NCBI GenBank assembly: GCA_013792005.1
Contig: VMSU01000156.1
Span: 1 to 42,624, forward strand
Length of the DNA: 42,624 nucleotides
Direction: 5' to 3'
DNA from: Desulfobulbaceae bacterium
GTDB taxonomy: Bacteria; Desulfobacterota; Desulfobulbia; Desulfobulbales; VMSU01
Shown: positions 6,951-42,624 of the stretch, one piece after another
Layout of the letters: each line of letters starts with the position of its first letter
Position numbering within the stretch: position 1 is the stretch's first letter
Notes under the pieces: generated by a model
Told to the model about the DNA's origin: nothing
Databases searched by the model: none
Seen by the model: only the letters and a program-made list of their open reading frames with translations
Position numbers and translations under genes: made by a program

Positions 6951-7319
6951 TTATTCGAATCCAGTGGGGGCAGAGAGGGTGAAAAGGATGATTCTCTCTC
7001 CAGTTACAGTGCTGATATCCGTGTGCAGACTTTTGACTTTTTGTCCGGTAATTGATTCCACTACGGCTTCCAGTAGGGGCCTGCCTTTTTCCAGAAGGGC
7101 AATTCGAACCTGTTTGATCAATTCTCGGCCGTTGCTCATTTCACCTGGTTTGGAAAGTTGGTGCTCCGCCTGAGTGAGCACACCTTTGAGGCGGACTAGT
7201 ATTAGGTCACCGATAATATAGGTCTTGGTTTCGAGGGGGCCTCTACCCATGAACTCTTTTTCAAACTTGATGATGGCCTCACTGATGTCAGCCTCAACCT
7301 GTCCTTTTGTTCTGGTCAT
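6951..7319 (-). CDS. DUF2294 / MpsC-family protein
   Basis: This 122-aa soluble protein has the overall pattern of the DUF2294 family (Pfam Na-translocating membrane-potential system component MpsC): an N-terminal helical segment of GQVEADISEAIIKFEKEFMG type, a central GPLETKTYIIGDLILVRLKG, and a C-terminal part with VTGERIILFTLS. The length fits the family. A GGAGG site lies eight bases before the ATG. In known MpsABC systems the protein works with membrane partners in bicarbonate/sodium handling, but no MpsA or MpsB is seen here, so its role in this genome is open. It follows the tRNA-Leu terminator and is probably transcribed alone. Confidence 0.75.
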   Translation of the reverse strand: MTRTKGQVEADISEAIIKFEKEFMGRGPLETKTYIIGDLILVRLKGVLTQAEHQLSKPGEMSNGRELIKQVRIALLEKGRPLLEAVVESITGQKVKSLHTDISTVTGERIILFTLSAPTGFE

Positions 7320-7436
7320 TCTTCGTGTCCTCCATATGCTGAGACCATAGCTGCTACCAAGCAGAAAGGCAATATCAATAGTCAGGGCATAGAGTCACGG
7401 ATCTGAGTCGAAACGATCAAAAATGCTATGTATCAC

Positions 7437-7469
7437 AAAAAATGGGCTAACCAATTTCTTGGAAAGCCC
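7437..7469 (-). terminator. terminator of tRNA-Leu
   Basis: On the minus strand GGGCTTTCCAA, loop GAAA, TTGGTTAGCCC (T-T mismatches inside the stem), then ATTTTTTG. It starts 10 bp after the encoded CCA of the tRNA. Confidence 0.85.
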
Positions 7470-7478
7470 CGTATTTGT

Positions 7479-7566
7479 TGGTGCCCGGGACGAGAATCGA
7501 ACTCGTACAGCAGCGAGTGCCGAGGGATTTTAAGTCCCTTGCGTCTACCAGTTCCGCCACCCGGGC
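7479..7566 (-). tRNA. tRNA-Leu (anticodon UAA), CCA encoded
   Basis: The minus strand folds as a class II tRNA: acceptor GCCCGGG with CCCGGGC, anticodon arm GGGA-CTTAAAA-TCCC giving UAA, a long variable arm, and a T arm with GTTCGATTC. Discriminator A and CCA are encoded. The 88-nt length including CCA fits tRNA-Leu. Confidence 0.97.
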
Positions 7567-7595
7567 AATTTGTTGAATACTCGATAATTGTTGGC

Positions 7596-7624
7596 TTTAT
7601 ACTCTCTTTTTGAAAATAGATCAA
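7596..7624 (-). promoter_or_regulatory. sigma70-type promoter for tRNA-Leu
   Basis: On the minus strand TTGATC and TATAAA are separated by exactly 17 bp. The -10 box ends 29 bp before the mature tRNA, leaving a short 5' leader for RNase P. Confidence 0.65.
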
Positions 7625-7645
7625 CTTACGATTTTTGTCGATTCT

Positions 7646-7671
7646 GTCCTAAGTTTTTAGGACTGTTTTTT
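7646..7671 (+). terminator. small hairpin with T tract in the plus direction
   Basis: GTCCTAA pairs with TTAGGAC around a 4-nt loop, then TGTTTTTT. It points along the plus strand although both neighbours (tRNA-Leu and the retropepsin-like gene) are on the minus strand. It may block antisense transcription or act weakly in both directions. Confidence 0.5.
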
Positions 7672-7691
7672 GTGGGTTATTTTGATATTCT

Positions 7692-8663
7692 TTACAGCCA
7701 TCTAATTACACTTTTTTTCATGTCTATTTGGAATGGGTGCTTTTTTAGAAACGCCATACCTAATAGACCGTTGTGATCTCCATCTTGTTCGTTATGAATA
7801 TATGAGGTGGTTGCTACAAAGTTTTCTTCTCTGTGCGGGCCTACTTCTAACGCATCAAATTGGATAATTGCGTTTTCTATTTTTCTTCCATCTGCAACTA
7901 TTGAGTTACCCTTCCCTAAGAAGTTAGGCTGTATTTTTTGTGCTATCGAATAGTGGATAAGTGTTTGTCCACATCCGGTGTCTACTAATAGAGTCAATTG
8001 ATATCGAGTACCATTGTTTTCTATTATTGCTGGTATCAATATCGCATTGTTTTTTATGATAACTCGTGTTTCCTTTTCGATTCTATTTTCTGATCTCTGT
8101 GAAGTGCCTTGTTTTATTACGTTTATCCTTTCGTTTGTAAAATGTCTTGTTCCATTTTTACCTTCCCATGTGTAAATAATTTCTTCACCGCTGGTCCACG
8201 ATACTTTATTTCTTTTGTCGGAAAATTTATCTATTGCTTCAGGTGATTTCTTAATTATCGTTTCTTGTGTTTTAATTCTTTTTGGTTTTGATTCTATTGG
8301 GATTCTTGTTTTATACTGCTTGATTGCACTAAATGTTGATGCCACTCCTATTGCAATTAATGCAACGATCATACATTGTGCTATATTTTCTTGGAAAATA
8401 AATAAGTTAAATATATTATTTTTTTTCTGTTCATTCTTGTTTATGTTATTTTTGAAAAACTCATTATTCTCGCTTGGGTTTAGTTCTTTTTCGTTAATAT
8501 GTTTTTCAAGTTCAGTTTTCTGTAATTCATTTTTTTCTTCTTCTCTTTTTTTATATTTTTGAAGTAAGTTACTTGAATCTTTATTCCCATATTTTATTAA
8601 CGTGCATATTACAGCAATGGTAATTCCTATTATAATGATCATTATAAAAAGAAGTTCTAACAT
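7692..8663 (-). CDS. membrane-anchored retropepsin-like aspartic protease with DUF4124-like segment
   Basis: 323 aa. Hydrophobic segments at about residues 3-24 and 94-114 flank a Lys/Glu/Asn-rich linker (about 25-85), so the C-terminal two thirds probably lie on one side of the membrane. A segment near 160-176 (YTWEGKNGTRHFTNE) resembles the DUF4124 module. The C-terminal ~110 residues form a clan AA aspartic protease fold: LLVDTGCGQTLI near 224-235 holds the catalytic Asp-Thr-Gly, and NGLLGMAFL near the end is the usual hydrophobic-Gly motif. AGAGGA precedes the start. Base composition is far more AT-rich than nearby genes, suggesting acquired DNA. This is the bacterial single-domain, dimer-forming type; no reverse transcriptase is near, so it is not a retroelement. 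Substrate unknown. Confidence 0.75.
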   Translation of the reverse strand: MLELLFIMIIIIGITIAVICTLIKYGNKDSSNLLQKYKKREEEKNELQKTELEKHINEKELNPSENNEFFKNNINKNEQKKNNIFNLFIFQENIAQCMIVALIAIGVASTFSAIKQYKTRIPIESKPKRIKTQETIIKKSPEAIDKFSDKRNKVSWTSGEEIIYTWEGKNGTRHFTNERINVIKQGTSQRSENRIEKETRVIIKNNAILIPAIIENNGTRYQLTLLVDTGCGQTLIHYSIAQKIQPNFLGKGNSIVADGRKIENAIIQFDALEVGPHREENFVATTSYIHNEQDGDHNGLLGMAFLKKHPFQIDMKKSVIRWL

Positions 8664-40102: not shown

Positions 40103-40176
40103 TCCTGTTCCCTTCGGCTTCGCTCAGGGAACGGTCCCGCGATAATCGTTCCCTGAGCGAAGCCGAAGGAACAGGA
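40103..40176. repeat. palindromic extragenic repeat, 30-bp arms
   Basis: The left arm TCCTGTTCCCTTCGGCTTCG..AACG (31 nt) and right arm CGTTCCCTGAGCGAAGCC..AGGA (30 nt) are perfectly complementary except for one bulged G, with a 13-nt loop. The GTTCCCTGAGCGAAGCC core is of the widespread REP-like type. It follows engB by 59 bp and may serve as a transcript end. Confidence 0.85.
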
Positions 40177-40365: not shown

Positions 40366-40599
40366 ATGAGAGAGCTTCCCTGTTGGATGATCATGAATTG
40401 TAATAATCATGCTTGCATCGCACGGCAACAACCGGACACGGAGTGCTGGGAACTGGCTCAAGAGACCGAAGATTATCGTCCCGAGTTCAATGTCTGTTCC
40501 GACTGCCTGGTGTTAGTTCTTAAAACCGGTAAAGTTCCTCTCTCCCAGCCTGACTTGGCCATGATCGCCGACGGCAGACGATGCCCGTTGTCTCGTTAG
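40366..40599 (+). CDS. two-CW domain protein
   Basis: 77 aa. Two CW pairs, LPCWMIMNC near 5-12 and TECWELA near 26-32, with ACIAR between them, match the small two-CW domain seen in Desulfobacterota proteins. A later CSDC and a final CP give seven cysteines in all, suggesting a metal or cluster site. A purine-rich GAGGTGCAAGG stretch precedes the ATG. Function unknown. Confidence 0.7.
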   Translation: MRELPCWMIMNCNNHACIARQQPDTECWELAQETEDYRPEFNVCSDCLVLVLKTGKVPLSQPDLAMIADGRRCPLSR

Positions 40600-41362
40600 C
40601 TTGTAAGTTGGTGGCAAGCACTCCCAGGGCATCAGTGTTATTGTAACAGCTCTTGGCAACAAAACTGTACTGGATGTTGCCCTTGTGCTTTTAGCCGTTT
40701 CCCTCCAAAGAGGAAGAACCGACCGATCGAACTTTGATCTCGGGCATCCCTCTTATTTATCCGTCGTGACTGTCTTATCCTCATTTTGTACCCCAGCCTT
40801 ATATTTTATCTTTTATCCTGTCGTCTTCAGCACCCATTCCCAAGCATAATCTGCTTCAGTAATCGCTTGTGTGGATATCGTTGAGATTTTAACGTTTCAA
40901 CCATAGTCTTTTTATCTGTTCAGCCTCCATATAAAGGAGGATGGATAGCAGCGCGCTTGCAGTGATTGATAGTGTCATGGTGATCGCGAATTCTGAGAGC
41001 TGCGCGATTATAGTGCTAGGAAGGATTTACTGTTGATTTATTTTGAGGGAGGTGGCAAAAGAGTAGGGTTGCCAGGTAAATATTAGTATTTTTCAGATTT
41101 CGTCAATCGGCATTATTGGAGAGAATTTCTTACCACTAACACCTTAAGAGCTGATCTCTGGCATTGTTCGCGTTTGGCAGGCATGTGAAATGTGGGTTTT
41201 TCGTGGAACGGTAGGGGAAGCGCAATGGTGCGGTGGTATCCTGTTTCCTGGATATCGTTCCGTGAGGAGTGATATCTAGTTAAGAAATGGTCTGGTAACT
41301 CCAGGTTCTAGGGGGACAAAGGCTATGTATTGTGGAGATATCCGGAAACGGGATAATTATTA
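40600..41362. other. 763-bp gene-free stretch before the integron cassette
   Basis: No frame over ~60 codons, no tRNA and no clear repeat were seen. A 31-codon frame at 40941 has AAAGGAGG directly touching its ATG. No integrase gene or recognisable remnant is visible, so if 41363 is an attI-type site the integrase is not beside it. Some small stems (for example TATCC with GGATA near 41340) are too weak to name. Confidence 0.5.
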
Positions 41363-41369
41363 GTTGGGC
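41363..41369 (+). other. integron core site (GTTRRRY) at the left cassette boundary
   Basis: GTTGGGC fits the recombination core, with crossover after the G. It is exactly complementary to the GCCCAAC inverse core of the attC at 42486, as required if both come from the same circular cassette. Upstream sequence does not fold like an attC, so this may be an attI-type or secondary site. Confidence 0.65.
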
Positions 41370-41391
41370 TTAAACTCCACCTGGAGGAAAC

Positions 41392-41763
41392 ATGTTTGAG
41401 TGGTATGAAAATTTACCAGAATGGCTAAGGTGGGTCTTATTCGTGCCGCTGTCAGCCTTAGGTTCTTTGGTTGGAGTGATATTTTACGCAATATTCCGTG
41501 CAGATGATTTTGCGTTCGTGAAGCCCGTGTTCGCCATGTTAATTACAATGTTTGTTGTTTATTCTTTGGCACCAAGAGCTAAAAAGCAGCTAGCACTCGC
41601 TTCTCTTATAATTCGCATGATCGTAGTTGCTGTCATGATGAGGCTTGTTTGGGTGGTCGAAGGATATTTTGAAGCGCAGTCATTATGGGAAATCGGATAC
41701 GAACTTGCTGGATATATTATATCATTTTTGGTTTGGTGGAATTTTATGAAAAAAGATGCGTAA
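41392..41763 (+). CDS. cassette-borne small integral membrane protein
   Basis: 123 aa with three or four membrane helices: WVLFVPLSALGSLVGVIFYAI, KPVFAMLITMFVVYSLA, LASLIIRMIVVAVMMRLVWV and IGYELAGYIISFLVWW. Short polar ends. GGAGGAAAC directly before the ATG is a strong ribosome site and lies only ~15 bp inside the cassette boundary, typical for cassette genes. No recognised family. It precedes a second membrane-anchored gene in the same cassette by 81 bp. Confidence 0.7.
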   Translation: MFEWYENLPEWLRWVLFVPLSALGSLVGVIFYAIFRADDFAFVKPVFAMLITMFVVYSLAPRAKKQLALASLIIRMIVVAVMMRLVWVVEGYFEAQSLWEIGYELAGYIISFLVWWNFMKKDA

Positions 41764-41844
41764 AAAGCGACAGAAAGCAGGTCAATTTTTAGCTGGCACT
41801 ACAAGTTACAACTGTGTCGAGTTATGTACTATGAGAATTAAGCC

Positions 41845-42468
41845 ATGTCAGTTATTGAATTAATTTCATTTCTTGGCGGTTCATCCGTTTTACTTGGTGC
41901 TGTCGCATGGCTTATCAAATCCCTGACATCACAATTTCTTGCCAAAGAATTGGAGAACCATAAATCACAAATACAATTTCAGAATCAGATTGAATTAGCA
42001 AAAATTAAATACGAAATAGAAAAAATATTTTTTGAGCACCAGGTTGTATTTAGCAAACTTCATGAAAAGCAAGCAGAAATACTTGCAGGATTATATGCAA
42101 GCATTGTAGAGCTATATGATTTAGCGAGTCTATTCGTCAGTTACGCAATTTTTGAAGAAAAAGAAAGCAGAAAAGAAAAATCAAAAGAATTATTGGATGC
42201 TGTAAATAAATTTAGAAATATATATGAGCCAAATATAATTTTTTTCCCTGAAACTGTTTGTGTAAAAATTAAAAAATTGGATAAAGAACTCTTGGCTCCG
42301 GTAAGCAAATTGATACACCATCTAGAAATATATGAACAAAACGATGATATTGGACCTGCTCGCCAAGCATGGGAAGATGGCCAAGTCACAATTGAACAGA
42401 TTGTATTTGAAATAAAAAATGAAATTGAAGTTGAATTCAGGAAAATACTTGGAGTTAAGTTCCAATAG
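41845..42468 (+). CDS. cassette-borne membrane-anchored coiled-coil protein
   Basis: 207 aa. One N-terminal helix (FLGGSSVLLGAVAWLIKSL) is followed by a coiled-coil (FLAKELENHKSQIQFQ, ELAKIKYEIEKIFFEHQ, VVFSKLHEKQAEILAGLY) and a helical C-terminal domain (FRNIYEPNIIFFPETVC). The SKLHEKxAE element and the overall plan recall a hypothetical family that I have seen repeatedly near mobile and defence genes, but no function is proven. Composition is very AT-rich. Its stop is 17 bp before the attC site, the usual cassette spacing. Confidence 0.75.
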   Translation: MSVIELISFLGGSSVLLGAVAWLIKSLTSQFLAKELENHKSQIQFQNQIELAKIKYEIEKIFFEHQVVFSKLHEKQAEILAGLYASIVELYDLASLFVSYAIFEEKESRKEKSKELLDAVNKFRNIYEPNIIFFPETVCVKIKKLDKELLAPVSKLIHHLEIYEQNDDIGPARQAWEDGQVTIEQIVFEIKNEIEVEFRKILGVKFQ

Positions 42469-42485
42469 TGGAATTAATGGAAATG

Positions 42486-42548
42486 GCCCAACGAATAAGG
42501 TTAGATTGTGAGAGCGCAGCGAACCACAATCTGAACCGTTTGTTGGAC
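42486..42548 (+). other. attC (59-base element) recombination site
   Basis: 63 bp. Inverse core R'' GCCCAAC (42486-42492) and core R' GTTGGAC (42542-42548) fit RYYYAAC and GTTRRRY. Between them GTTAGATTGTG pairs with CACAATCTGAAC, leaving one unpaired G in the right arm, the classical extrahelical base that sets strand and orientation. The terminal loop is GAGCGCAGCGAAC-like. All hallmarks of a functional attC are present. Confidence 0.88.
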
Positions 42549-42624
42549 AAGCCCGGCTACTATATATAGAAAAGAGCTTTTGAGAGGGAGTCTGCCAGAT
42601 CAGGCAAAAGAAAGGACGGGATAC

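Follow-up and report, generated by a model that had tools for sequence, protein, structure and literature searches.

An integron gene cassette whose attC-like end combines its own R'' box with the end of an IS91-family element in a Desulfobulbaceae genome

Introduction

An integron gene cassette takes its R'' box from the same original attC as its 5' core (TTRRRY), and the locus described here raises the question of whether the 63-bp attC-like site that closes a two-gene cassette belongs to that cassette at all. The window, meaning the whole 42,624-nucleotide stretch that was analysed, is the entire contig C156 (VMSU01000156.1) of the 252-contig draft genome G000 of a Desulfobulbaceae bacterium (GCA_013792005.1), and it ends 76 bp past the site, within a repeat common to contigs C162 and C74 of the same genome. 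The original prediction had described positions 41363-42548 as a gene cassette with a complete attC site and two membrane genes. We found that the locus holds a real integron gene cassette with a misread attC. It is very likely, in our judgement, that the locus represents an integron fragment without an integrase gene of its own, consisting of an attI site, a two-gene cassette and an IS91-family HUH transposon placed directly after the AAC of the R'' box. Two points are of interest, namely an IS91-family end that imitates attC upon landing on R'', and attI sites that have been multiplied.

Results

The features of the locus are, from left to right:

41238-41363, plus strand: attI-like site, ending at the G of GTT, with no adjacent intI
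41238-41257: attI box A, inverted
41271-41287: attI box B, GATATCTAGTTAAGAAA
41337-41362: attI box C, GATATCCGGAAACGGGATAATTATTA
41363-41369, plus strand: cassette 5' core GTTGGGC at the attI/cassette junction, exact complement of the cassette R''
41392-41763, plus strand: cassette gene 1, ORF for a 123-aa membrane protein with three hydrophobic segments
41845-42468, plus strand: cassette gene 2, ORF for a 207-aa protein in which a hydrophobic N-terminal segment is followed by a charged body, probably helical
42486-42492, plus strand: R'' box GCCCAAC, which belongs to the cassette's own attC and is complementary to the 5' core; its AAC is the IS91 insertion target
42486-42548: attC-like site, from GCCCAAC (42486-42492) to GTTGGAC (42542-42548), with imperfectly paired inner arms and one extrahelical base
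42493-42624, minus strand: hairpin (oriIS-side) end of an IS91-family insertion sequence, truncated by the contig end
42497-42510 and 42525-42537: stem arms of the IS91 hairpin
42542-42548: inner GTTGGAC of the IS91 element, just inside the hairpin

Further upstream, the window also contains a perfect inverted repeat, with 23-bp arms around a 13-nt loop (40111-40169), and, behind a YihA/EngB-type GTPase gene, a small cysteine-containing ORF (40366-40599) that is conserved in this position in two genomes of the genus.

The 126 bp ahead of the cassette align with nine other loci, and the conservation among these 10 copies, which come from four Desulfobulbales genomes, ends at GTT. At least 11 copies of the site were present across four Desulfobulbales genomes, among them three in the window's own genome, which carries an additional partial copy on C139. 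When 84,980 species genomes were searched with the attI pattern, it was found in eight places, which belong without exception to Desulfobulbales: three in Desulfocapsa sp., four in Desulfobulbaceae STD1_110 and one in Desulforhopalus sp. Three homologous copies directly adjoin, in divergent orientation, decayed genes for long (~480 aa) integron integrases, with the cassette junction at G|TT; the remaining copies, including the one in the window, have no intI beside them, and tblastn detected no intI remnant upstream of the window's copy. The inverted outer boxes and the several dispersed copies, three of which in genome G003 have 260-262 bp in common at 95-100% identity, would also fit another kind of repeat, for instance a regulatory one or the end of a transposon. 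However, conservation ending exactly at the GTT crossover, a different gene behind each copy, attC sites following several of them (in the window, where the site is chimeric, on C74, and on G003 C86, C124 and C151) and the adjacent integrase remnants argue against this reading, and we consider it unlikely. Since the three G003 copies lie in different places, their long shared stretch indicates that the attI site itself was multiplied. We infer that the copies without intI are orphan attI sites, possibly served in trans.

Several other structures were observed. On C74 and C37, a GC hairpin, GATGGCCCGGC-tgc-GCCGGGCCATC, lies directly after attI copies and is followed by an attC that lacks R'' (loci L026, 2403-2535, and L048, 5209-5269); a similar hairpin with an R''-less attC is found on C162 (L025, 8052-8212). 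The array behind the orphan attI on G003 C86 (L060, 4061-8650) encodes a caspase-like protein and an AAA ATPase/TOPRIM-like pair, contains two good attC sites, and looks defence-rich.

The original prediction had seen no integrase and proposed a CALIN-type array. The genome has two integron-integrase genes (TIGR02249), one on C89 (374 bits, an open 482-aa frame) and one on C162 (322 bits, split by a frameshift), the locus has an attI, and the window contains a single, chimeric attC-like site with no second attC, and a CALIN was therefore rejected. Further attC sites are found on other contigs of this genome. Upstream of the C89 integrase, before its contig ends, are related but different boxes (GATAACC..), so this integrase is no proven partner of the attI described here. 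In the C162 array, an IS3-type insertion lies within the first cassette after the frameshifted intI (L025, 5775-7150); the gene at 7180-7938 of the same locus encodes a 252-aa protein whose C-terminal part is TIR/nucleoside-deoxyribosyltransferase-like (PADLOC 'Effector TIR', E 7e-13) and is a possible anti-phage cassette.

The cassette itself withstood scrutiny. Its 5' core is the exact complement of its R'', its cargo consists of two short ORFs, an attI-like site lies upstream, the genome has integrases and other attC sites, and the relative of protein 2 is itself cassette-borne. Both ORFs exist as originally predicted, with their hydrophobic segments. Neither protein gave a significant match to domains, solved structures, or defence or phage families; for protein 1 the Pfam matches were all sub-threshold. 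Among 395 genomes of the phylum, protein 1 had at most one relative, a very weak one, and protein 2 had a relative in G135 alone, where it forms a single-gene cassette flanked by two attC sites of 117-119 bp, beside an IntI gene; a distant relative of protein 2 is a Synechococcus plasmid protein (27% identity). The two proteins were not seen together elsewhere in the 395 genomes, and the proposal that they form a functional pair is not supported, protein 2 occurring without protein 1. A degenerate attC was looked for between the two genes and was not found. As a tentative best guess, protein 2 may be helical and anchored in the membrane, with an accessory role that is perhaps of the defence type.

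All of the attC features that had been predicted are present: the RYYYAAC and GTTRRRY ends, the complementary but imperfect inner arms, the extrahelical base, and the GTTGGGC at 41363-41369. In a scan of the 42.6-kb window for RYYYAAC..GTTRRRY sites with complementary arms, 42486-42548 reached an arm score of 29, compared to 16 for the runner-up, and a score of 29 or more was not reached by any site in 200 sequences generated from a first-order Markov model of the window. The bottom strand, whose folding had been suggested as a check, folds at -10.9 kcal/mol (z = -2.9). What did not hold is the completeness of the attC, as the R'' alone is owned by the cassette, and the arms and the R' are the end of an IS91-family element.

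This element was recognised from the repeat in which the contig stops. Over its last 141 bp (42484-42624) the window agrees in every base with the end of C162. A 139-bp match at 99% lies inside C74, where the shared stretch runs into an ORF that matches the C-terminus of a transposase intact in related genomes. In the window's own genome the transposase is visible only as its C-terminal 57 residues, on C74; at the present locus, its gene lies past the contig end, reading towards the hairpin end. The element is assigned to the IS91 family because the transposase of the intact relatives carries the Y2_Tnp (HUH) and zinc-binding Zn_Tnp_IS91 domains. A search of the 395 phylum genomes with the C74 stretch gave matches in 11, including its own, and the hairpin was at the corresponding place in nine of the 10 others (13 of their 14 matches). 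The hairpin is present in 27 of the 258 genomes of the order, in which the reversed hairpin pattern gave no match, and a stem change is compensated between copies (GGTT/AACC versus GGAT/ATCC). Genome G476 has 14 near-complete copies of a 2.44-kb element with fixed ends, 97.7-99.8% identical and with unrelated flanks, one of them carrying a further insertion; the copies start AAC|GAATAAGG, finish ..TTCGTCCAACAA, and carry genes for a fragment of a tyrosine recombinase and for the IS91 transposase, which is frameshifted in the copy that was read. Positions 42493-42624 thus form one end of an IS91-family element, whose repetitive nature explains why the contig stops at 42624. No plasmid match to the 60-residue transposase tail was obtained by tblastn. 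Two further observations concern the hairpin: contig C1 of G476 (4.8 Mb) has 17 dispersed copies, making this a good genome for studies of the element, and on G482 C61 a fully symmetric version, GAATAAGGTT..AACCTTATTC, stands between two ORFs with no IS sequence following it (L151, 5405-5464).

The R'' in front of the element is the cassette's own, because it is the exact complement of the cassette 5' core, as in the other two interrupted cassettes of this genome (GTTGGGC/GCCCAAC on C162 and GTTAGGC/GCCTAAC on C74). Exact complementarity thus holds for all three insertions, each of which occupies the R'' of a different cassette exactly behind AAC, and is also seen in intact cassettes of G003 and G135. 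A single duplicated cassette behind the three identical copies was rejected, given that unrelated cassettes precede these copies and that the shared part continues into the transposase.

It might be supposed that the IS91 end carries a functional attC to which cassettes were joined by the integron integrase, as its architecture is that of an attC and cassettes precede many of its copies. However, an IntI crossover at G|TT of R' would have brought the cassette's arms together with its R'', and in many cases the element occupies a plain NAAC site, making such a history highly improbable. An insertion of the element into the cassette, and not a joining of the two by IntI, is indicated by the R'' following the cassette and the arms following the element. 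Cassette capture by one-ended IS91 transposition is likewise unlikely from what is known of IS91 and ISCR elements, as the cassettes abut the hairpin (oriIS) end. That the 63-bp site is simply the cassette's ordinary attC, and that its three identical copies reflect a CALIN-type array with homogeneous attC sites, is scarcely credible: although the site satisfies all attC sequence and folding rules and its copies lie at cassette ends, the identity extends 76 bp into the transposase element, G476 has this hairpin as an IS end outside integrons, and the other attC sites of the genome (88 bp on C162 and 123 bp on C74) differ in arms and lengths.

Insertion of the IS91-family element behind R'' was then compared across 46 copies with distinct flanks. 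The consensus target is R-Y-(C/A)-T-AAC; AAC adjoins 45 of the 46 copies, as NAAC that is mostly TAAC rather than GAAC. In other genomes, an exactly complementary core lies within 1.5 kb upstream of 13 of 43 copies (3.4 expected), and none of 500 permutations reached as high a count when copies were treated as independent. Most of the core-to-R'' segments enclose an ORF, and in some (L079 and L085) the core ends an attC-like hairpin. The strict R''/R' rule was passed by 18 of the 46 copies, and in G476 and G154 the element mostly stands at plain NAAC sites that lack a matching core behind the IS. The element appears to favour integron R'' boxes without requiring them. A strict attC scan around the IS91 copies missed most cassettes, and the core/R'' complementarity test was more sensitive; an alignment of true attC sites was too heterogeneous for a covariance model.

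Discussion

Transposases of the IS91 family are HUH enzymes that work on DNA in single-stranded form, at a terminal hairpin, and in IS200/IS605 elements guide sequences help to choose the target. At the present locus, it is probably the terminal hairpin that the transposase recognises and links to a NAAC target (GTTN on the opposite strand), and the element's GTTGGAC, being complementary to RYYYAAC, might assist in choosing this target through a guide-like pairing that we propose tentatively. Sites of the attC type would be good targets, as they offer RYYYAAC and fold as single strands, and DNA structure may contribute to their choice. Insertion would cut a real attC after R'', whereupon the hairpin and GTTGGAC of the element would restore the appearance of an attC; the look-alike arises because the inner GTTGGAC pairs with R''. 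The contigs of this genome all end inside the element, and the rest of the cassette attC, predicted beyond it, lies outside the assembled data. Past the contig end we would expect the IS91 transposase and tyrosine recombinase genes, then ..GTCCAACAA, and then the remaining half of the attC, ending in GTTGGGC on C156, GTTGGGC on C162 and GTTAGGC on C74.

A bolder proposal, which we think rather unlikely, is that this IS91 lineage evolved for insertion at R'' and rebuilds a working attC from its own hairpin, the cassette remaining mobile. If so, the integron integrase could take the transposon along or trim it, and HUH transposition would be directly coupled to integron recombination; a chimera that worked would link two mobility systems based on single-stranded DNA. 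Since attC is recognised by structure, and the IS91 end meets the structural rules, such an end may be counted as an attC, and identical IS91 ends may be read as an array or CALIN in Desulfobacterota genomes. The repeated attI copies raise the question of whether several attI sites, dispersed over one chromosome, share a single integrase. Among the papers listed from the open-access literature, none was found to describe, by title or abstract, an IS91 end acting as or imitating attC, with most subscription journals outside the scope of the search, and the novelty of the attC-imitating end is provisional.

Among known systems, the element resembles IS91-family members with an accessory tyrosine recombinase in its Y2_Tnp and Zn_Tnp_IS91 domains, its upstream tyrosine recombinase gene, its terminal hairpin and its NAAC-side insertion. 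The usual IS91 target is just GAAC/CAAG, whereas here the extended target resembles an R'' box and insertion into cassette attC sites is repeated. Mobile elements found in attC sites also include the IS1111-attC elements and the group IIC-attC introns, but their enzymes are unrelated (a DEDD transposase and a reverse transcriptase/ribozyme, respectively), and in the present case an HUH element stands behind R'' and rebuilds an attC look-alike with its own end. According to PMC7923331, no class of intron other than group IIC had been reported with integrons. A CALIN is a cluster of attC sites without an integrase, currently defined by at least two attC sites (PMC9024848); the locus shares with it cassette DNA without a neighbouring intI, and differs in its attI and in having a chimeric site as its sole attC. 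Finally, the unusual delta-attI gene cassettes of mobile integrons (PMC12901181) are described as containing partial attI copies that end cassettes inside class 1 arrays; they likewise place attI-derived sequences away from the primary attI, whereas here near-complete attI copies start arrays at separate places of the chromosome.
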